Shown: piece by piece, positions 5,397 through 17,766 of the stretch
Numbering within the stretch: the stretch's first letter is position 1
How the letters are laid out: each line of letters opens with the position of its first letter
DNA from: Plumapathes pennacea
Taxonomy: Eukaryota > Cnidaria > Anthozoa > Antipatharia > Myriopathidae
Reading direction: 5' to 3'
Assembly (NCBI GenBank): GCA_964036295.1
Contig: OZ038467.1
Coordinates: 20,839,670 to 20,903,669, forward strand
Length of the DNA stretch: 64,000 nt
Made by a program: the position numbers and the translations under genes
Notes under the pieces: generated by a model
Told to the model about the DNA's origin: nothing
The model's database searches: none
What the model saw: only the letters and a program-made list of their open reading frames with translations

Positions 5397-5985
5397 GGAT
5401 CATTACGGGTATCGGGCCACAGGCAAAGTAGAGGTCGCATTCTTAACATGAGTGATTTGATCATTTCAAGTATACGACCGGAGGTCGTATTCTTAAAGTG
5501 ATTGAATCAATCATTTCAAGTATACGACCTCAACCATAATTTCCAGGGGGGGGGAATAGAATTTTAATCATTTCAGGAACACGACCGGTCGTTTTCTTAA
5601 AATGATCAAGTTTTTCAATTTAGGTTTACGACCGGTCGTATTCTTAACATGAAAAACGTGCTCATTTCAGGAACACGACCGGTCGTTTTCTTAAAATGAT
5701 CAAGTTTTTCAATTTAGGTTTACGACCGGTCGTATTCTTAACATGAAAAACGTGCTCATCTCAGGAACACGACCGGTCGTATTCTTAACATGAAAAACGT
5801 GCTCATTTCAGGAACACGACCGGTCGTTTTCTTAAAATGATCAAGTTTTTCAATTTAGGTTTACGACCGGTCGTATTCTTAACATGAAAAATGTGCTCAT
5901 TTCAGGAACACGACCGGTCGTTTTCTTAAAATGATCAAGTTTTTCAATTTAGGTTTACGACCGGTCTTTTTTTTTAACTATCAAG
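5397..5985. repeat. Left inverted end of the Merlin element, nine palindromes 47 bp apart
   Basis: An outer part of about 180 bp carries imperfect sites (ACGACCGGAGGTCGT near 5473). Then the palindrome ACGACCGGTCGT starts at 5581, 5628, 5675, 5722, 5769, 5816, 5863, 5910 and 5957 (the last degenerate on its right). Two spacer types alternate, so the true unit is 94 bp. A G run (about 5546-5554) interrupts the outer part. Such dense arrays are expected to bind a protein, probably the transposase, but this is inference. Confidence 0.9.
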
Positions 5986-6197
5986 TTCTTTAATTTACAG
6001 AAACATTCAAAAGTGAATATTTTATATATTAGTCATTGCCCGACTTTCTGCATGATCCAATTGATAACGTGTCGACAAGGGCAGAAGGAATAAAAAGACA
6101 CAGTGAAAGCCCTTCCTTTGTCTTTAATATGAGTTGTAAATGACGTGCACATAAAGAACTATGACCCTTCCATTTCTAACAAATATATTCAAAATGA

Positions 6198-7718
6198 TTA
6201 GACTGGATAATGGGCACGTATTGCCAGGATGAAATTTCCGAAATAGTCATCAAGGCCGTACCAATCTCGCCACATCTGCTCATTGAGAAACGGCTGTAGG
6301 TCAACATCCCTAATTCCCCTCTTTTCTTTTATTTTCGATTTCATTCTGTTCCAACACGATTCTATATGTTGTGTATGTACACCTGTTATTGGATCGACAA
6401 AATGATATCGATGGACAACGACCTCGTGGGCGGCAACGTTAGCAAGCCTTGCTTGCATGTTTCTGTATGCTCCCCAGTCGTCACTGTGCACTACTGATCC
6501 CGGCAGGAGAGCTCTTCTGATTATGGGATAGAGATGGGCCGCATCTCGTCGACGGACTACTTGGAAGTAACCTCGGGATGGCGTGTAAGCTGTTGACACT
6601 AACCCAAACACCCAGTTGCGACGACGATGAGGCCTTCCTCTATTGTACTAAAACCACAAATTGAAATGGTTAATCGAATCCAGAAAGAAAAAGAGATGTC
6701 GGGATAGCATCGGGCTTCATGCTTGTAATACGGCAAACACCCTCTCACCCCCTCTTCTTTTCAATGCTGGAAAGCGAACAGCCAAGAATATTGGTGGGAA
6801 GGGGGTGGGGAGGAGAGGGAATTCATAAAGGGGCTGGGGGACGCCCATATATACACCATATAGGAATGTGTATTGTTTTCAGGATTTTAGTCGAGCTGGA
6901 GTATTTTTGGTCGAAATTTCTTATCGATTAAAATATCGCAAGGGTTTTCGAACTCAGTGGGCACACGGAGCAGTACCTGGCCTGTTAAACATATTATGAT
7001 TCAAAAAGCACACATCAGAAAGGAAATGGACGGACAGCAATAAACTGCTATATCTTTCTTCTCACTGTGCTATGTGCTACGTTCTCATTGCAGCCTCACC
7101 TTTGGCTTTCTGTTAAATTTGCTTTCGTCGATCTGCACAAGGTCTGCTGGTCCTCCAAAGGGAATAACAGGCATCCTTCTGAGCTCTTGACTACAAATAT
7201 CTCTGCACTTTCTGAAGACATTGGAAACAGCTCCTTTCCCAATATTCCAATATTCTGACATTCTAGTCTGCTTTTCCTCTGCAGTCCACATAAAAATAAG
7301 CCCCACCAAGGTTCCCATCTGTAGCCTGGGGAACTCTGCAAGGAGCGAACCCTCGCGCACCGATCTCCTCCTGTGGCAATCAGGGCATCTCCTACAAAGA
7401 ACTATTGGTCAAAGTGTGTAATTTTAGGGCAAATACTTAATATTTTCAGAATTTTTCACCCGGTAACTTTAAATATCACCACGTCCTACAACGTCGACAA
7501 AGAGATGTAATCCATCTTCCATATCTAGGAACTGTTCACACAAATACTTACCATGTGTATCCGTCGATGCGCTCCGCCCGCCTCTTCAGAAGCATATTTA
7601 CTGGATGGGGATGATTATTGCACTCCATGTGCCCTGCTAATAGTCCCTGATTTTGAAGCCATTGGATCAAAACCAGTGGAGGGCTCATTATTATTGCCAT
7701 CAGTTCTCTCAAATTCAT
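6198..7718 (-). CDS. Merlin transposase (ISXO2/IS1595-like DDE), three exons
   Basis: Exons on the minus strand are 7552-7718, 7100-7391 and 6198-6647, with GTAAGT and GTGAGG donors, and join to a 302-aa protein. The start chosen begins MNLRELM, which matches the usual N-terminus of the family. A zinc-ribbon-like part follows (CNNH near 45, then DGYTWRCPDCHRRRSVREGS across the first splice). The DDE core shows D144 in VQIDESKF, D209 in VVHSDDWGAY and E249 in HTQHIESCW. The reaction is cut-and-paste transposition in the nucleus, acting on the inverted ends of this element. The stop lies about 200 bp inside the left end. All exons are open, so it may still be active. It is transcribed away from the second gene at 8593. 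Confidence 0.88.
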
Positions 7719-8592
7719 TTTTTCTGGTTAAACTAAGCCATTGAGTATGACCTTCAGTATCAGTTTATAACGCCTTGACACACTTCATTCATTTGCGTCA
7801 CTTCCTTTAGTTTTAAGCCTTTGACTGCGAATACCCATCATTTCCAGGGGCGTAGCAACCTCTACGCAAGTACGCACGGCCGCACACTTGAAACATAGAA
7901 ACTGTTCGCTTCCTGTGGTCCTGGGACATGTACATCAGTTGCATGAATGAGCCTTTCCTGTTTGCAACACTTCAGGCGCCCCTCCCGTTTTTAACGCCTG
8001 CATGTCTTGAGACACCATGGTGCGCAAGTCTGGGTCCTTTCTGCTCAACGGGTTATCAAAAGGCTTGCCATCATCCCTTCCTACAGTCCCTTCAAAAGCT
8101 TTCTCAGCTAATTTGCTTTTTACTATTTCCATCGAGCATAATGCAATGTCCCTGGGAGTACAGGTCGTATTCTTAACTTGAACAAAGAATGAAAGCGAAC
8201 TTCACCCCACTCCTGTGAAACATGTATGTAAATGTGTCAGTTATAAAGAGCCCTTCATGGTATCAAATGAAGCAGTTACAGTTGCCCTCCCTTTCTAGTT
8301 GACATCGTTAAAGTACGTATTGTAATTACAGTAATCGGATTATTGAGTCCGCTACGTGTGTATAGGGCGTACATTAAGTTACTTAAAAAATGCACACGAG
8401 AGCGAGCGGCCACAGAACGGATGAGGAACAGGCTAGGCGTGACTGTCTAACATGATGTGTTCATGGGACATCATGGTGCGGTTTGGGTGCGGTTTTCCTA
8501 AGGGGTTATTTAAAGGGGTTGCACTGATGTCGAGTTTCATTCCCTTCTTGGCTACATATCACGAAGAACTTAACTACAACTTTCGCTTTAAC
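7719..8592. promoter_or_regulatory. Shared upstream region of two divergent transposase genes
   Basis: This 874-bp gap lies between the start codons of the two head-to-head genes and is the only place their promoters can be unless one starts inside the other. It contains a lone GGTCGTATTCTTAAC (about 8163-8177) that matches half of the terminal palindrome unit. That suggests a transposase-binding site in the promoter (inference). No TATA box is convincing. Upstream in-frame ATGs at 8452 and 8464 could lengthen the plus-strand protein. Confidence 0.5.
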
Positions 8593-9909
8593 ATGGTGAA
8601 CTTTAACAGAAATGTATTACCTCTGATAAGGGCTGGCAACGTGAGAGGCCTTTTGCATTTATTGATGGAAATCGGCCTACTGGCAAAAACTATGTTTTGC
8701 CATCATCATGATGGTAACCCTCCTGAAATGGGCTTGGTAGAGAGAAGAGGCAATGTCGATGGCTATCAATGGTGAGTTGTTGTTTTTTTTTATTATTATT
8801 TATTTATTTTTTACCGTTACATAAAAACAAATGTGTTTGAACGAAGTTACTTCTGAGGTACGAGATGATGTCAGCAGAATATCTGACAAGAATGTCCGAG
8901 GCACCACTGATCAATTCAACTATTTCCAAGATCATTTTTACAGTACAGTCGAGGCTGATCCATAGGTCGATTGTCATCGCTTTAACTTATGTTTATTTTG
9001 TACTGTTTTCCAGGAGATGCGCAGCCTGCCGATCAACAAAATCAATAAGGACGGGTTCGTTTTTTGCCAAATTGAAGGAATCGTTTGCAACGTGGATGCG
9101 ATTTTTGTACCGCTGGACAAAGAGGGACAACCTAACACGGATGTCCCAGGTTTGCAGCATATCGGTGGCCGCTGCAGTCGATTTTTCAAACTTCTGTCGG
9201 GAGATTTGCACAGACGTGTGGCAGAGAATGCTTGTAAGGGACGAGGAGGTCTTTCTCGGAGGGCGAGGAACGTGTGTCGCTATCGTCACCATGCGGTTAG
9301 AGGTCAGCTATGATTTCATAATTTTGTCTCATGTTGTGTTCATTCTTGCATTGTACCAACTTTGAGGTAAAAGGCGATTATATTTAAATCTAGTATGTTC
9401 GGTGTTCCTATTTGGGATCACATTCATTATTCCCTCTTATACATTCGGGGAGCGTGCTGACTAATCAGTATTATTTGTGATTTGGCATTCGCGCAGTATT
9501 GCAATGTTGGTTCAATCGAATTTTTACCTTTTTTCAACAGTGCTGCCGACGTACTCGCTGCGGTTTCTTGCTTTTAATCGAAGGTGAGAAACCGGTGATC
9601 GTCATTCATGTCAAACCAAATACCCCCATTGGAGTTTTGCCCGTAAAGGACGATACAAGCGTTTACAGTAACATCAGGGCCATTGAAAATGTGAACGGTG
9701 CGGCTCCCTATTCTTTGAGAAACTTTCCTCAACGACAAAATGTGGAGTTAGCAAAAGAAGATGTCAGGTCTTGGTTTGGGGATATGAGAGGCGTTGCCCA
9801 CAGGCACGTTGACGGTTATGTTCATGAATATAATTGGAGGAATTCACTCTCAGGTGAAAATAATTTTGACGATTTTGTATCGGCCATAAAGTCATGCTAC
9901 CCTCAGTGA
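8593..9909 (+). CDS. Second Merlin-family protein, first catalytic Asp lost, three exons
   Basis: Exons 8593-8771, 9014-9302 and 9541-9909 join to 278 aa with the same two intron phases (2 and 0) and positions as the minus-strand transposase. Matching blocks are DGYQWRCAACRS...SIRTGSFF (zinc ribbon), RMSQVCSI/RMSEYWNI, CREICTDVWQRM/CRDICSQELRRM and, at the C-terminus, NNFDDFVSAIKSCYP/DYFGNFILAIRAHYP. Where the canonical protein has IDES, this one reads IVTM (about 150-153), so the first metal-binding Asp is gone. DD at 193-194 and E225 lie where the second Asp and the Glu would align, but the Trp after the Glu is lost. The frame is open throughout. It probably acts as a DNA-binding or regulatory partner rather than a nuclease (inference). 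A freshly decaying duplicate is the alternative. Confidence 0.75.
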
Positions 9910-10560
9910 AGATAGCAATAGTTAATAAATTAGTTTACAGGTTTTAGTTCCATTGTAAAGTGGTGAAATCATTTTTTCATGAATTGTCCTTCGGCCGTAA
10001 ACAAATGGATTTTTACACTGCAATAACTTGGCTATTCAGTACTGGTGTTATATTTCCTCCTCTGTTGCAGCCGGTTTGAGGACCATATGACGTAAACCTA
10101 CGACATAACTTTCAGTTCACGAATAAGGCGTCGACTGTTCTAATTTGTTTCTATTATTTTAAGAATAACAGCTGTATTATTTAGAAAGTGATAAAATTTT
10201 TCAACTTAAGATTACGACCGGTCGTGTTCTTAAAATGCTAAACTTTTTAAATAAATTTACGACCGAAACACTGCACCCATGAACACTTAAGGATGGTTTA
10301 CACGGACGACGCAAACATAAGTATCGACAGTGGCGACATAAGCATAAACATAAAGAACGGACGTGTTTGATTATTATGCTTATATGTGCTATGCTTATGC
10401 TTGCGCTTATACTTTTGCTTCAGTCGTTCGAGTAAACCAGCCTTTAACGGAGAAAATATAATGCATGTTATAACAAGAAACCAAACAAAAATAAATTAAG
10501 AGAATCAAAGAGCCAAACAAACCAGCGTGTTGGTGAGGATGGCGTATAAGGAAGCTAGGA
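9910..10560. other. Merlin internal non-coding DNA
   Basis: One full palindrome ACGACCGGTCGT occurs at 10214-10225, with a half site at about 10259. No gene is seen. The stretch ends at the BEL target duplication. Confidence 0.6.
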
Positions 10561-10564
10561 ACGA
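10561..10564. repeat. BEL target-site duplication, left copy
   Basis: ACGA precedes the left LTR and recurs directly after the right LTR at 16781-16784. If the LTR is taken one base shorter, the duplication is AACGA, the 5 bp typical of BEL/Pao. Confidence 0.75.
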
Positions 10565-10876
10565 TGTGGGGAATTTCTGAGAAGTAGTTGGCCCTGATTC
10601 ACAATTCCCAGTGACACTGAAGAACTCACCACGATGTCAACAGTTTATTTTTCTCACAACTCGCTCGCTCGCTTGAACAGACTCGTCTCGCTTGAACAGA
10701 CTCGTCTCGCTTGAACAGACACGAACACGTGTGTAAACTACCTTCTGATTGGCTAACTAATTTTAAACGAAATACCAAAAGTCTGGAGAGTTCTAGAAAG
10801 GTCTGTGCACGCAAATAACAACTGTTTTGTAACGACCGAAATTAACACGAAAAACTGCGGCTTAAGATTCTTCACA
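10565..10876 (-). repeat. BEL 3' LTR
   Basis: It starts TGTGGGGAAT and ends TTCACA on the plus strand, with TG...CA ends on both strands. It contains a short internal repeat, CTCGTCTCGCTTGAACAGA, and matches the other LTR over 312 bp. Confidence 0.95.
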
Positions 10877-10892
10877 CACTCCCCCTATTAAA
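10877..10892 (-). promoter_or_regulatory. Polypurine tract
   Basis: On the minus strand, TAATAGGGGGAGTG lies directly before the 3' LTR. This is the expected primer for plus-strand DNA synthesis. Confidence 0.7.
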
Positions 10893-10926
10893 GTGGTTCC
10901 CAACTTTAATATTGACAAGGAATAGT

Positions 10927-13900
10927 TCAGTCGTCTTCGTTCTCATTAGCAACCACGCCCACTAGGCGATTTACTGCTGCAATCTTCGCTTGTCGACCAT
11001 GGCCTATGGCTCGTTGATGCTGGTTCTGGTTGTCCTCACCGGCATCATCATTAGACTCGGGATCGTCACTGGCGCCACTTATCTCAAGGTCAGCCACCAG
11101 CTGCAGGGGTCTCTCGACAACGTACCCCTTGCCCGTTCGTATCTTGTAGCCTCTGGTCACCCCATCCTTTCCAACGATGGAGTCCACGATTCGCCCGATC
11201 TTCCAATTCGCTCTGTACTTCGTTGTGTCCTTGATCAGAACAACTGAGCCCTTGCTCATCGTCACTTGATCCTTTGCTGCAGTGCCCGTGCTGAAACGCT
11301 CTTGTAAGGCATGAAGATACTCATTCAGCCAACGTTTACGAATATTATCTCGACATGCCTTTAGATATAGTAACCGTTTGGTCATCTTCTCTCGCTCGTC
11401 GCCCATATCGACGGTATCCTCCTCAAGGAAACGAGCTGGTTGTCCGCGTAGCAGGAGGTTTGGAGTGATCACCGGCTGCTCAAATTCTCCCCCGATGTAG
11501 CACAAAGGTCGGTTGTTCATGAAGGACTCCACGTCTAGTAGAACGTCTTCAAGTTCCTCAAATTTCAACAGCGCTCGTCCAATTGCTTTGGACAGACAGT
11601 TCTTCATGATGCCAATCAGTCTCTCGAAGAATCCGCCCCACCATGGAGCGCGTGACAAGTTGAATCTCCACTCAATGTCCTTCGTTGCCAGGTAGTTGAA
11701 GAGATCATCATCTTTCCGCAGTGTCGACAACCACTGTTTCGTTGCTTGGAAAGTCTTAGCGTTGTCACTCACCATTAGGTTCGGTGAGACTCTTCGGGCA
11801 ATAAACTCTTTAAGACCTCGTTTGAACTCGCCTGCTGTCAAGTTGCTGCAAAGTTTGAGGTGTACTGCCCTCGTGCTGGCACATGTAAACAGTGCAATGT
11901 ATGCCTTGCTTGTTTCGTGCTTCCCAGATTTGCACAGAAGCGGTCCAGCAAAGTCCACCCCAGTGGCGTGAAACGGCTCTGTAAATTCTGTTCTGAAGGT
12001 TGGTAAGGCTGAAGTGGTTGGGGCACTAAGAACTTTTGCTCGGTACTTCTTACAGTAGTTGCAGGTATACCGTATGCTCTTTACCAGCGATCTCAGCTTA
12101 GGGATCCAGTACTTCTGTCGAACTTTGCTCATTGTTGCAGCAACTCCCCCGTGTAGAGTGTGTAGATGGCAATGTTCAGCGATGCGTCTCGCTAACGCAG
12201 ATTCCCTCGGAATGAAAACAGGAGTGTAGCCTTGAATTCTTTCGTAGCACCTCATTAACCCGTCTTCATCTGTCGCAAGTTTTAGGCCTGAAGTCATGTC
12301 ACTTGTTCTTTGAGTGATCCGAATCCAGACATTCTCTGCCTCCGTGATCTCGGTTTTGCTGAGTGGCACGTTTTGTCTCGCCTTGTTGTTGATTGGTTCA
12401 TCTGTCTTTCTGCAGCAATCTATGAAGCGTTTGACGTACGAAGTTATGCGCAGAAGCCTCCAAAACGTGAACTTGTCCAAGAGATCCCCTGCCCAGCTCT
12501 TTAAGGTTTCTTGTGCCGCGTCTTCCGTCAGCAGCATTGCTTCTTTCTGACGCCTTTCTGACTTGGCTTCACCCGTCTCTAAAATCGCTGGTTGCTCTGG
12601 CCTGTTCGACGCATCCGAAAGCCAGATGGGCCCCTTCAACCACATTGATTTGAGCTTGTCTGGCACTGACCCTCGGGTTCCAAGGTCGCTTGGGTTTTCT
12701 GTTGTAGGAACATGTCTCCACGCCGCATCTGTCAGCTCGCCGATCTTCTTGACTCGATTGCGCACGAAGGTTGACCACTCCCCACGATTTGCCAACCAGC
12801 ACAGCACAGTGATGCTGTCCACCCAGTTGTGGTAGGCTGTGATTGGGAAGGACGTTAACGCCTTGCTCACGTTACTTTGTAGTTTCGCCAAGGTGTGTGC
12901 TCCGATCAGTTCCAGTCGTGGAATGCTCATCTCTTTAGGCGCGACTCTTGCTTTAGCTACCAGTAGGTTCTGGTCGACTGGCGTCGCGTCCTGGTATGCC
13001 ACGACATACAGTGAAGCACAAACAGCAATCTTGCTGGCGTCTGAAAATCCATGGATCTCAAAGTGCGTTCGGTGGGCTGTAAACACGCAGCGCGGGACGG
13101 TAATGGTTGAAGCTCGCCGCAAGCTGTTTACCCACGCTTCCCATTTCCGTTGAACATCACTTGGAATCTCGTCGTCCCAGTGTAGTTTTAGGAGACAAAC
13201 TTCACTGAAGATTAACTTCGCAGTGATGGTGACTGGAGCGCTCAACCCAAGTACATCATAAATGCTGTTGATAGTAGAAATCATCTTCCGTTTTGTCAAT
13301 GGCTTGGCCGTCTTCAAGCATGACTCGAGGTTGATAGTAAGTGTGTCTTCCTTTTTGTTCCACTGAGTTCCAAGGATTTTGATGTTGCTGTTTTGTCTGT
13401 TCCCAACCAAGCTCTTGGCGTAAGTCTCTTCCCCTTCACGGTTTCCCTCGCTCACCGTTAGCTGCCCTACGTTGCTGTGCCACTTGTGAAGAGAAAAACC
13501 GCCCTCTGACAGAATTTTGGTAGACTCTTCTTTGAAGATCGCTGCTTCTTCTTCTTCCGTATCTCCTCCCCCTTGGATGTCATCGACATACGTGTCCTCC
13601 AACAGTGACTGCGTTGTCGCTTTGTACTCCGCCTCGTAGTTCCTGACGTGCTTCTGAAGTGTTGCGCCAAGGATATATGGACTCGATGTAGCCCCAAATA
13701 TCACTCGTGTGAATCTGTACTCAGTGACGTTTCGATCTCTGAGGTTGTCGTACCACAGGACTCGTTGTGCATCTCTGTCTTGGTCGTGCACTCGGATTTG
13801 CAGGAACGCCTTCTGAACGTCTCCAGTGACGCAGAACTTTCGCATTCGATTCCGTAGAAGGATATCGAACAGGAGTGGCTGCAGTGGTGGTCCTGTCTCT

Positions 13901-16368
13901 AAACAGTCGTTGAGGGAGGGGGTTTGGGGGTTGGCTCTCGAGGAACAGTCATACACAATCCTCATCTTCGTTGTCTCCGCATCTTCTCGAATAACGGCTT
14001 GATGGGGCACATAGTGCACAACCTCCCCCGTTGGATGGGTGGGTATTTGCTCGATAATTCCATCACTCATCTGCTCCCGCATTATCTGGTCATACTCGTG
14101 TAATCTCCCAATCTTCTCCAGCTTTTTCGTCGTACTGTAAAGTCGGGCGGTAGCCAGGTTCTTGTTGATTGGGAGCGGAACGTGGTCCTTTTTCCACGGC
14201 AATTTCGTTTCGTAGTACCCGCTTTCGGTCTGGTTTAGCTGTTGTAGGAAATCTTCATGCATCACCGCGTCTCTTCCTGTACCCGCGTCCGCAAGTCCGA
14301 GAACGTCCAGTGAGCACAACTTCTCAAACTCTTCCTGGCCAGACCTCAGAAAGAACTGCTTCTCCGTGCAATTTTCTGTTGTGGGCTGTCGGCCGTAAAT
14401 CGTCCAACCGAGCATCGTGAATTCGGCGCCTGGGTCTTTATCTGGGATGGTTCCTAAGACTTGAGGCTCTGTCGTCCGTACTCTTTGGTAGTCACCTGCT
14501 CCAAGAATGATGTGAACTGGCATTGAATCGCTTCTTGTTTCTTCCTCACTAAAGATTAGTCGTCTGAATCGGCCATGCTGTTCCTTTAACGCGCGAATGT
14601 TCGGGTTAGGCAGGTAAGTGAGTACATCCTTTCCAGCATTGAGGCACTCGACATTGAACTGGAAACCGTCGATCGCAAGAGACTGTATGTTGATGTCGTA
14701 CACCTCGATGTTCCTCCTTATGGTCCCGAACATTTGCTCGATGCAACGTTGCTCTTTTCTCGCAGGTTTCAGGTGAAGTTTGGTTATGACGTCAGCGCAC
14801 ACGTAAGAACTTCCGGCACCCGAGTCAAACATCACCCGAAATGTCTCCGTTCCCACTTTGGCGAGCACTGTTGGATGCAATGTGCTTGTCTGCTTCAGAA
14901 GTGAACTCAAACCCTTCTCCACTTTAGAATTTTGAAGTATGTCGACAGTTGATTTCTCCTTGTCACAAATAGAGGTGTGATGCTTTCCTTGGCAGTTTTT
15001 GCATCCCCTCGATCTGCATTGAGATGCCCTATGCCCAATTGCTGTACAATTATAGCACCTCTTGTTTCTCTGCAGTGTCGCTCGTCTTGCGGCAAGGTCA
15101 AGCACCCTCGTGCAGTTGGGGCTGAAATGTTCATCCGAGTTACAGTACACACAAGTAAATTTGCGGTTCTGCTTCCCCAGCTTCGGCTCTTCTGAGTTTC
15201 CTAGAAGCAATTTTTCTTTTCTCCCTAGATGATGTCCCGGGGCGTTATCTCTCTTTCCATCATCATCACTGGTTCTCAGCGGATTTCTTTCCACATACTT
15301 TCGAAGGTTCTCGACGAGTTGCTCCAGACCCCATTCTTCCCAGGCGTCATCCTTCTGCACGATCACTTCTCGAACAGGACCCAGTTTGTCCATCAGTGTG
15401 TAGATCATGCTCTGGGCAGTGGTCAATCTCTTCATCGTAGTAAGAGTGCGCACTACCCTGGCCAGCTTGTTGTAGAACTCGTGTACGTTGCGCAGCTTGT
15501 GAATGCTGGTGATGGCGGGAAGTTCTTCCAATTCTTTTATCAGGGCTTTGTGTACTTTGACGTCCTTCCCATAGGTCTCAACGAGAATTCGTTTAGCCTC
15601 TTTGTATCCTTCCTCAGTGTGCGGGAGTCCTAAGATGTCCTCCTTGGGTTTCCCTTTCACCAGCTCTAGCAAGTAATTAAACTTACTAATTTCCGCGATT
15701 GACGAGCCATCCACTTCTACCGTAAATTGGTTCCAGAACCGTAACCAGTCTTTGTAGTCACCAGTGAAGGGAGTGATGGTGTACTTCTGTAGCTTTACGG
15801 ATTGCGCTGTGGATTTCGTGGGTTTCTCTGTGTTTTCCTTTCCGATACGTTCGGCTTGGCTCTCCCCTATTTGTTTCTCGAAGTCAAGCTTTCTCATGTA
15901 CCACTCCTCTTCCCGCTGTTGTTGTCGTATAGTGGCCTCCTCGATTTCCTTTTGTTGTTGTAACCTGTACTTGGTCTGCTCCTCGTTGATCTTCTGTTGA
16001 ATATGCAGTTGTTTATCAAGTGTCACTTGTGCTTCTTTCACCGCAAGTTCTTCCAGTCGTTTCTTGATTTCAAGACGTACCCCACGAAAGGGTTGTATTT
16101 TTCCCTTTTGATCTGCCGTCCACTTTTTAATGTACTCCAAATCCTTGTCTGATTCGAGCAGATATTCAGCTGTCTCGTCCTTACATTTTTCCAAACGCTT
16201 GATCAACTTTCCAATCTGTTCGTACGCGATTGACACCTCCTCTGTATCTTCACTAGTCGATAGTTCCTGTATTTCCTCAAGTTTAAGATCCGCTATTGCA
16301 ATTTGTTTGTTGAACTTCTCCTCCGTATAAGCCATGTTTTTCAAGGCTTCCGTTCTTTGAATTCGCAC
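10927..16368 (-). CDS. BEL/Pao Gag-Pol polyprotein, 1813 codons
   Basis: One open frame encodes all retrotransposon functions. In order there are: a coiled-coil, charged N-terminal part (to about 190); a Gag region of DUF1759 type (about 195-355); zinc knuckles starting CVYC and CYNC (about 406-468); an aspartic protease with DSGAG near 515; reverse transcriptase with TGDVQKAF near 848 and YVDD near 927; an RNase H-like part with FSDASK near 1108; an integrase zinc-binding HHCC segment (about 1399-1441); and an integrase core with GVDFAG near 1469, VSDNAK near 1533 and the Glu of FFERLIG near 1582. No stop or frameshift interrupts it. The first Met is at 16368; a second candidate, beginning MAYTEE, lies 11 codons in. 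Confidence 0.95.
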   Translation of the reverse strand: MRIQRTEALKNMAYTEEKFNKQIAIADLKLEEIQELSTSEDTEEVSIAYEQIGKLIKRLEKCKDETAEYLLESDKDLEYIKKWTADQKGKIQPFRGVRLEIKKRLEELAVKEAQVTLDKQLHIQQKINEEQTKYRLQQQKEIEEATIRQQQREEEWYMRKLDFEKQIGESQAERIGKENTEKPTKSTAQSVKLQKYTITPFTGDYKDWLRFWNQFTVEVDGSSIAEISKFNYLLELVKGKPKEDILGLPHTEEGYKEAKRILVETYGKDVKVHKALIKELEELPAITSIHKLRNVHEFYNKLARVVRTLTTMKRLTTAQSMIYTLMDKLGPVREVIVQKDDAWEEWGLEQLVENLRKYVERNPLRTSDDDGKRDNAPGHHLGRKEKLLLGNSEEPKLGKQNRKFTCVYCNSDEHFSPNCTRVLDLAARRATLQRNKRCYNCTAIGHRASQCRSRGCKNCQGKHHTSICDKEKSTVDILQNSKVEKGLSSLLKQTSTLHPTVLAKVGTETFRVMFDSGAGSSYVCADVITKLHLKPARKEQRCIEQMFGTIRRNIEVYDINIQSLAIDGFQFNVECLNAGKDVLTYLPNPNIRALKEQHGRFRRLIFSEEETRSDSMPVHIILGAGDYQRVRTTEPQVLGTIPDKDPGAEFTMLGWTIYGRQPTTENCTEKQFFLRSGQEEFEKLCSLDVLGLADAGTGRDAVMHEDFLQQLNQTESGYYETKLPWKKDHVPLPINKNLATARLYSTTKKLEKIGRLHEYDQIMREQMSDGIIEQIPTHPTGEVVHYVPHQAVIREDAETTKMRIVYDCSSRANPQTPSLNDCLETGPPLQPLLFDILLRNRMRKFCVTGDVQKAFLQIRVHDQDRDAQRVLWYDNLRDRNVTEYRFTRVIFGATSSPYILGATLQKHVRNYEAEYKATTQSLLEDTYVDDIQGGGDTEEEEAAIFKEESTKILSEGGFSLHKWHSNVGQLTVSEGNREGEETYAKSLVGNRQNSNIKILGTQWNKKEDTLTINLESCLKTAKPLTKRKMISTINSIYDVLGLSAPVTITAKLIFSEVCLLKLHWDDEIPSDVQRKWEAWVNSLRRASTITVPRCVFTAHRTHFEIHGFSDASKIAVCASLYVVAYQDATPVDQNLLVAKARVAPKEMSIPRLELIGAHTLAKLQSNVSKALTSFPITAYHNWVDSITVLCWLANRGEWSTFVRNRVKKIGELTDAAWRHVPTTENPSDLGTRGSVPDKLKSMWLKGPIWLSDASNRPEQPAILETGEAKSERRQKEAMLLTEDAAQETLKSWAGDLLDKFTFWRLLRITSYVKRFIDCCRKTDEPINNKARQNVPLSKTEITEAENVWIRITQRTSDMTSGLKLATDEDGLMRCYERIQGYTPVFIPRESALARRIAEHCHLHTLHGGVAATMSKVRQKYWIPKLRSLVKSIRYTCNYCKKYRAKVLSAPTTSALPTFRTEFTEPFHATGVDFAGPLLCKSGKHETSKAYIALFTCASTRAVHLKLCSNLTAGEFKRGLKEFIARRVSPNLMVSDNAKTFQATKQWLSTLRKDDDLFNYLATKDIEWRFNLSRAPWWGGFFERLIGIMKNCLSKAIGRALLKFEELEDVLLDVESFMNNRPLCYIGGEFEQPVITPNLLLRGQPARFLEEDTVDMGDEREKMTKRLLYLKACRDNIRKRWLNEYLHALQERFSTGTAAKDQVTMSKGSVVLIKDTTKYRANWKIGRIVDSIVGKDGVTRGYKIRTGKGYVVERPLQLVADLEISGASDDPESNDDAGEDNQNQHQRAIGHGRQAKIAAVNRLVGVVANENEDD

Positions 16369-16439
16369 AAGTAAACATTCACCACTCGCTGCACGTACCT
16401 TTTACTCCGTGAAAGAAAGTATAAGTAATCGCTCCAAAA

Positions 16440-16462
16440 GTAGTCCTGGCAGGGTCGCCACC
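16440..16462 (-). promoter_or_regulatory. Primer-binding site, tRNA-Arg-like
   Basis: A few bases inside the 5' LTR the minus strand reads TGGCGACCCTGCCAGGACTA. Its complement ends in CGCCA, like a tRNA 3' end whose acceptor stem would be CAGGGTC, as in some arginine tRNAs. The tRNA assignment is from memory of the family and unverified. Confidence 0.55.
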
Positions 16463-16468
16463 TTCCAG

Positions 16469-16780
16469 TGTGGGGAATTTCTGAGAAGTAGTTGGCCCTG
16501 ATTCACAATTCCCAGTGACACTGAAGAACTCACCACGATGTCAACAGTTTATTTTTCTCACAACTCGCTCGCTCGCTTGAACAGACTCGTCTCGCTTGAA
16601 CAGACTCGTCTCGCTTGAACAGACACGAACACGTGTGTAAACTACCTTCTGATTGGCTAACTAATTTTAAACGAAATACCAAAAGTCTGGAGAGTTCTAG
16701 AAAGGTCTGTGCACGCAAATAACAACTGTTTTGTAACGACCGAAATTAACACGAAAAACTGCGGCTTAAGATTCTTCACA
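16469..16780 (-). repeat. BEL 5' LTR
   Basis: It is identical by eye to 10565-10876 over 312 bp and carries the promoter of the minus-strand element. ACGA follows at 16781-16784 as the target duplication. Confidence 0.95.
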
Positions 16781-17365
16781 ACGAAGACTATATGCAAATA
16801 ATAACCACTGAGTGGGAGGTACGCATTACCCACCTTTCCTACAACATACTGCGATGATAAATACTTCCTATAAAATCAACGAAGCGGCTTGTACTGTGGA
16901 AGATCGGCCATATAAATTATCTTACATATAAACATATTTTGTTCCTTGTGCTTTCGCTTGCGTCGAGCCTGTTTTCACTGTGAAATAATGACTGTTGTGC
17001 TTACGCTTGTGCTTATGCTTTCATGCGTAAAGAACAATAGTACAAACTATAGAGCGCTACCATTACCCGATATGTTTTTTTTCCTTTTTTTGGAAAAAAG
17101 CGACCTGTCGTAAACATATGAAAAACCTATAATAATGGCCAAAATTAGCTGGGACGATGCTGACTGAATATGAATTTACGACCTACTGCTTTACCCCAAG
17201 GCTATGTAATTTGTACTGAAACAAAATCATCAACACTAGAGGTAGCTATGATGCCCCACCCCTCTGAATCAATGTTGGTGTGAGTTGGTGCAAATGATAT
17301 TCCAACATTGAGGGAGGGGAGGAGGGGGGATTTGTATCGTCCCAACACTTTTGGCCATGATTTTA

Positions 17366-17766
17366 ACTTTAAGAAAACGACCGGTCGTGTTCCTGAAATG
17401 AGCACGTTTTTCATGTTAAGAATACGACCGGTCGTAAACCTAAATTGAAAAACTTGATCATTTTAAGAAAACGACCGGTCGTGTTCCTGAAATGAGCACG
17501 TTTTTCATGTTAAGAATACGACCGGTCGTAAACCTAAATTGAAAAACTTGATCATTTTAAGAAAACGACCGGTCGTGTTCCTGAAATGATTAAAATTCTA
17601 TCCCCCCCCCCCCCCCCTGGAAATTATGGTTGAGGTCGTATACTTGAAATGATTGATTCAATCACTTTAAGAATACGACCTCCGGTCGTATACTTGAAAT
17701 GATCAAATCACTCATGTTAAGAATGCGACCTCTACTTTGCCTGTGGCCCGATACCCGTAATGATCC
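17366..17766. repeat. Right inverted end of the Merlin element, five palindromes 47 bp apart
   Basis: ACGACCGGTCGT starts at 17377, 17424, 17471, 17518 and 17565, again at exactly 47-bp steps. The outer block (about 17600-17766) is a near-perfect inverted copy of 5397-5560, with a longer C run (about 17601-17616). This end has five sites against nine on the left, so array length varies within one element. Confidence 0.9.

Follow-up and report, generated by a model that had tools for sequence, protein, structure and literature searches.

Transposons of the Merlin superfamily are customarily built around a single transposase, although no formal criterion demands it, and the locus described here raises the question of why one such element should hold a second, transposase-related gene between its ends. 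The element occupies positions 5397-17766 of the window, by which we mean the whole 64,000-nucleotide stretch of the Plumapathes pennacea genome that was analyzed (GCA_964036295.1, contig OZ038467.1, positions 20,839,670 to 20,903,669 of the forward strand). It is of Merlin type, and its two genes, which we call T (minus strand) and X (plus strand), stand head to head between long inverted ends. The best reading of the data is that X would encode a protein without catalytic activity that binds DNA and either partners or regulates the transposase T. Below, W denotes the window copy of the element, and coordinates given without a contig prefix or an L-locus number are window positions.

The inverted arms come to about 400 bp in total at 97% complementarity or more, with the outer 158 bp identical and the inner pair (5546-5801 and 17356-17611) 97% complementary. 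The element starts with GGATCATTACGGG, that is with 5'-GG, and its ends agree with those described for Merlin elements (5'-GG, 24-462 bp; PMC8101967). A 12-bp palindrome, ACGACCGGTCGT, forms a regularly spaced subterminal array at each end; 19 matches with at most two mismatches were found in the window against 0.76 expected, 18 of them inside the element, and a sequence close to the subterminal repeat unit was seen by eye around 8165, in the intergenic region common to T and X. Because the element holds a 6.2-kb retrotransposon, the Merlin part itself amounts to about 6.15 kb.

The exon models of both genes are predictions from splice signals and homology. Spliced accordingly, T has an intact frame from ATG to stop of 302 amino acids with intron phases 2 then 0, and its protein matched PF12762 (DDE_Tnp_IS1595) with an E value of 3e-15 and 57 bits (cut-off 27). 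By sequence and alignment it keeps D, D and E at VQIDES, HSDDWGAY and HIESCW, which we take to be the catalytic residues. T is thereby a predicted IS1595-type DDE transposase and the probable catalytic partner of the pair. Paired C-x-x-C/H motifs resembling a zinc ribbon were observed in exons 1-2 of T (7100-7718) and at loci L071 and L064, and such motifs in T and its relatives gave a weak match to Zn_ribbon_SprT (E 0.08, below the cut-off).

X likewise has an intact ATG-to-stop frame, of 278 amino acids, and its intron phases are those of T. In a six-sequence blastp search the two proteins were 26% identical over residues 17-301 of T and 20-277 of X, and with X as the query against the whole genome we recovered single-exon Merlin-type proteins (E 7.7e-8 to 5e-6) and exon 2 of the window T (2.6e-5). 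A pattern search for relatives of X in viral contigs gave four matches, none of them confirmed. Chance likeness between X and T is ruled out by these genome-wide protein matches together with the near-full-length alignment, and X is, as judged from sequence comparison, a genuine transposase paralogue of T, homologous to it across nearly the full length. The original prediction of two head-to-head genes inside one pair of long inverted ends, with the same exon count and intron phases and with collinear blocks, was borne out in all of these respects, the ends being 100% complementary over 158 bp.

The complete DDE triad of an active Merlin transposase is absent from X. From the conserved GG to the common phase-0 intron, the sequence is GGPADLVQIDESKFNRKPK in T and GGRGTCVAIVTMRLE in X, which puts V at the place of the first catalytic D in X; with the phase-0 intron as the alignment anchor, V stands there also in X', a relative of X found elsewhere in the genome. 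X retains a glutamate at the E-aligned position, and the position of its second D is uncertain because the adjacent helix is apparently absent from X, in which exon 3 has 27 codons fewer than in T. Against Pfam, X matched no family at a useful level, PF12762 included. The C-x-x-H and C-x-x-C pairs that it retains look zinc-ribbon-like by eye. X thus appears to have lost part of the RNase H-like domain along with the first catalytic aspartate and to have kept the N-terminal, putatively DNA-binding part and the C-terminal end.

Table 1. Features of the window copy, of the retrotransposon nested in it, and of the related gene X'.
Feature	Position	Strand	Remarks
Left terminal inverted repeat, outer part	5397..5554	+	158 bp, 100% complementary to 17609-17766; arm on to ~5801
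Left subterminal array	5581..5968	.	ACGACCGGTCGT x9 (8 exact, 1 with mismatch), 47-bp spacing
T exon 3	6198..6647 (6647-6198)	-	presumed second D in HSDDWGAY, E in HIESCW; 149 codons
T exon 2	7100..7391 (7391-7100)	-	presumed first catalytic D in VQIDES
T exon 1	7552..7718 (7718-7552)	-	ATG, phase-2 donor
Intergenic region common to T and X	7719..8592	.	874 bp, between head-to-head genes
X exon 1	8593..8771	+	C-x-x-H half of putative zinc ribbon (by eye)
X exon 2	9014..9302	+	GGRGTCVAIV: V in place of first catalytic D
X exon 3	9541..9909	+	X/X' omega 0.13; 122 codons
Extra exact copy of ACGACCGGTCGT	10214-10225	.	motif search of window
Presumed BEL/Pao-like long terminal repeat (LTR) retrotransposon	10565..16780	-	6.2 kb; nested in the Merlin element, foreign to it
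Retrotransposon LTRs	10565-10876 and 16469-16780	-	312 bp each, identical
Retrotransposon single long open frame	10927-16401	-	open reading frame
Right subterminal array	17377..17576	.	ACGACCGGTCGT x5, all exact, 47-bp spacing
Right terminal inverted repeat, outer part	17609..17766	-	158 bp; arm inward to ~17356
X'	C7:15503937-15505207 (L059 2938-4208)		intact 277-aa frame, splice phases as in X

Comparison with X', whose protein is 64% identical to that of X, shows that X has been under purifying selection in the past. The ratio of non-synonymous to synonymous substitution rates (dN/dS, or omega) between the two genes was 0.095 by counting, at a dS of about 2.4 that is close to saturation, and 0.155 in a pairwise maximum-likelihood codon model (twice the log-likelihood difference from omega 1, 114), with the constraint spread evenly over exons 1-3 (maximum-likelihood omega 0.17, 0.14 and 0.13). 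For comparison, T and T2, the transposase of a different Merlin family of this genome (L071), gave an omega of 0.065 at a saturated distance. Since X and X' both lack the first D, the past constraint most likely acted on proteins already without it, and X has most likely evolved as a working protein lacking that residue. In five further copies of the element (compared from base 17 of the gene onward; L058 with 438 bases only), the exon sequence of X held no gap and no stop. At the X' locus, two X' genes in head-to-head orientation make up an imperfect palindrome (L059 1128-2497 and 2821-4235), one of them intact and the other damaged. Diverged forms of ACGACCGGTCGT flank the pair: with up to three mismatches allowed, eight matches were counted where 1.16 would be expected, two of them inside X' exons or at an exon edge. 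X' likely sits in a related element.

A search of the genome with the end sequences returned at least 79 matches, at least 40 of which were full-length or nearly so (both ends of W included), these counts being lower bounds with 40 of 111 candidates scored. Gene content was read by protein match at 20 fetched end-bearing loci plus W, excluding weak matches of T to the exons of X and of X to those of T. Apart from W, both genes were found at a single locus (L039), where a 5-bp gap puts exon 3 of T out of frame and a tandem repeat stands in place of the beginning of X exon 1. Four loci held T without X (L042, L046, L053, L056), four held X from at least two exons without T (L040, L045, L048, L058), nine held only exon 3 of X or its tail (L041, L043, L047, L049-L052, L054, L055), and two held neither gene (L044, L057). 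At other end-bearing places, protein searches located X exon 3 (C4:23222486, C2:6345217, C12:6165361, C1:12437340) and T (near C2:23723815-23725251). An intact X, from ATG to stop and with standard splice sites, is present in L045 and L048 as well as in W; L039 and L040, like those three, have a standard stop codon and standard splice sites. The second gene is therefore neither confined to the window copy nor broken in all others, and the frame of X' is intact too.

The pair of T and X is old and recurrent in this genome. Protein searches uncovered three internally deleted remnants, diverged by about 5-25%, in which parts of T and X adjoin in the gene order of the window: L068 (W 5800-6633 then 9211-10525, 93-95% identity), L069 (W 5829-6745 then 9708-10148, 89-91%) and L070 (W 7130-7733 beside 9788-10383, 84% and 75%), all with incomplete ends in the DNA read. 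Their deletions have different breakpoints and their divergences differ, which makes a single recent copying event unlikely. L040 was rejected as a third two-gene copy because it duplicates part of the L039 region in inverted orientation; no T was among the matches listed for L040 or for the 3 kb further upstream. The outer flanks of L039 (C1:6533000-6541000) and L040 (C1:6584000-6590700) are reverse complements of each other, an inverted duplication with its halves some 45-50 kb apart. Seven derivatives (L043, L049-L052, L054, L055) have in common a breakpoint at W 9546, the start of X exon 3, and form a non-autonomous subfamily with an X fragment.

Among the 14 two-ended copies, W included, a perfect 8-bp target-site duplication was present in five (L041, L043, L044, L047, L053), a duplication matching at 7 of 8 bases in two (L051, L054), and flanks alike at no more than 5 of 8 in the remaining seven (W, L039, L048, L049, L050, L052, L055). 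The 8- or 9-bp target duplication typical of Merlin elements is thus a property of the family and not of W, whose flanks are alike at only 4 of 8 bases; together with the GG ends and the PF12762 transposase, the duplications in sibling copies confirm the initial assignment to Merlin. The eight end-adjacent bases in the right flanks of L049 and L050, on two chromosomes, are mutually reverse complementary, possibly by chance.

As to where X came from, the original prediction had proposed either an internal duplication and inversion of T or the capture of a relative. A recent duplication with inversion inside the element, which concerns origin and is compatible with every reading of function considered here, would account for the equal exon number and phases of T and X, but T2 has both introns at the same places and in the same phases, so that the introns are ancestral, predate T and are no pointer to recent duplication. 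Identity between T and T2 is about 57% for exon 3 and 40% for exon 2, as against 26% between T and X. In a tree of eight proteins, T and T2 grouped to the exclusion of X at an ultrafast bootstrap of 97%, and placing X with T alone was rejected by the approximately unbiased test (AU, p 0.038) and the Kishino-Hasegawa test (KH, p 0.042) and kept by the Shimodaira-Hasegawa test (SH, p 0.075), which makes this a weak rejection; neither of the two other placements tested was rejected. With a long X branch and one row without exon 1, the tree gives a lean and no proof. Pointing in the opposite direction, to kinship of T and X, is the C-x-x-H motif common to the two, as against C-x-x-C in the four other Merlin proteins read with that part (L062 among them). 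A recent duplication is on these grounds improbable and is not favored; the evidence leans toward X as an old paralogue or a captured relative, so that capture survives as one of two candidate origins.

For the function of X, we propose that T would act as the catalytic transposase and that X would bind the element ends or the ACGACCGGTCGT subterminal arrays, with or without T, and would belong to the transposition complex as an accessory subunit that helps to assemble the ends. The 12-bp repeat is palindromic and hence suits a dimeric binder, and the arrays at both ends offer candidate binding sites for X. A two-component transposition system of T and X is plausible; the DNA binding of X, its partnership with T and its positive role in transposition are what we infer from sequence, and this specific accessory function we place at slightly short of an even chance. 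A bolder form of the proposal, in which this Merlin lineage would move by means of a two-protein complex of T and an ancient, element-encoded, non-catalytic paralogue that obligately binds the palindromic arrays, is possible and rather more doubtful.

Several observations weigh against a partnership of T and X. Where several intact two-gene copies had been anticipated, only W and L039 hold both genes, and W alone among the copies examined has both intact. No X was detected by the X search near T families 40-60% identical to T, with flanks read at two loci; in the L065 family no second gene was detected in about 4 kb upstream of exon 2, and at L071 none in the surrounding 4.2 kb (about 1.5 kb of it upstream of exon 1). 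These other T families without a detected X indicate that X is apparently a specialty of its lineage and not a general Merlin requirement. At the X' locus, neither T nor clear ends were found within the 6 kb read. Finally, young X copies differ from W by 1-2 synonymous and 2-7 non-synonymous changes, a neutral-looking pattern, and in a set of five copies, three amino-acid changes and not a single synonymous change are private to the X gene of W. The expectation of a dN/dS well below 1 for the second gene held against the diverged X' (0.10-0.16), and the differences among young copies say little about selection in either direction.

Two other functional readings of X must be weighed against an accessory role. 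X could be a self-encoded repressor, a dead transposase that would limit copy number by occupying the ends or poisoning T multimers, in the manner of Tn5 Inh or the KP protein of the P element. The loss of the first catalytic residue with retention of the DNA-binding part would suit such a protein, the head-to-head promoters would allow feedback, and 13 of the 20 loci carry part of X without T, against four with T and no X. These counts may, however, merely mirror which deletions spread, and the strong, even constraint on all three exons goes beyond the apparent need of a simple competitor, which tempers the idea of a repressor without removing it; we consider it somewhat unlikely. The possibility that X is a passenger without a present role, the constraint between X and X' being a relic of an earlier time, we regard as quite unlikely. 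It would explain the neutral-looking differences among young copies and the nine loci where exon 3 or its tail is all that is left of X, but the young-copy differences carry little weight either way, and X is intact in W, L045 and L048 and uninterrupted in the exon sequence compared in the five further copies.

Partial parallels to a pair of T and X exist in several known systems. CACTA (En/Spm) elements, with TnpA and TnpD, also encode a second protein of their own and carry a short motif repeated in their subterminal parts; TnpA, however, is not a transposase paralogue, and the binding of X is a proposal. Inh of Tn5 and KP of the P element are transposase-derived, non-catalytic products that repress their parent transposase, but both come from the transposase gene itself in truncated form, whereas X is a separate, diverged gene. 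From Merlin elements and the bacterial IS1595 (IS1016) family, with which it shares GG ends, 8-bp target duplications (in sibling copies) and a DDE_Tnp_IS1595 transposase, the present element differs in the second, non-catalytic paralogue inside the same ends. In the portion of the Merlin account available to us (PMC8101967), Merlin-related proteins without the DDE motif are noted, as is one family in which an additional, overlapping frame resembles no known protein and is put down to chance, and no element with two transposase-related genes appears there. The second gene of KolobokP, a eukaryotic DDD/E transposon, is reported to be a His-Me finger homing endonuclease (PMC9587614) and, unlike X, not a transposase relative. 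In Paramecium, PgmL1-5, which lack a complete catalytic triad, form complexes with PiggyMac, one catalytic relative (PMC6143343); these are domesticated host genes derived from piggyBac, whereas X is still within its transposon and its partnership with T is proposed here. Titles and the openings of abstracts, in a coverage mostly outside subscription journals, yielded no Merlin with two transposase-related genes, and we judge the element with T and X to be a new Merlin variant.

Among domesticated host partners, non-catalytic paralogues of transposases are already known, for instance the PgmL proteins of Paramecium. If X is indeed a selected, element-borne partner, division of labor among transposase subunits can originate in the parasite itself, and the element would be a small system for asking why a dead paralogue is retained. 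Were the two-protein complex real, the arrangement of PgmL and PiggyMac would be found inside a mobile element and not after domestication.

Single-exon Merlin-type proteins are encoded at L062 (C12:4752949-4753779), L063 (C4:13600559-13601389) and C2:22684297-22685127. The first catalytic D is G in L062 and L063, and L064 has N there. Between L062 and L063, omega was 0.375, with twice the log-likelihood difference at 10, and further non-catalytic Merlin relatives besides X may be under constraint.

The retrotransposon nested in W is presumably of the BEL/Pao class. At 16 of the 20 fetched loci its site is empty, with W 10564 joined straight to 16780 (in L048, 10561 to 16784), which indicates that the insertion is recent.

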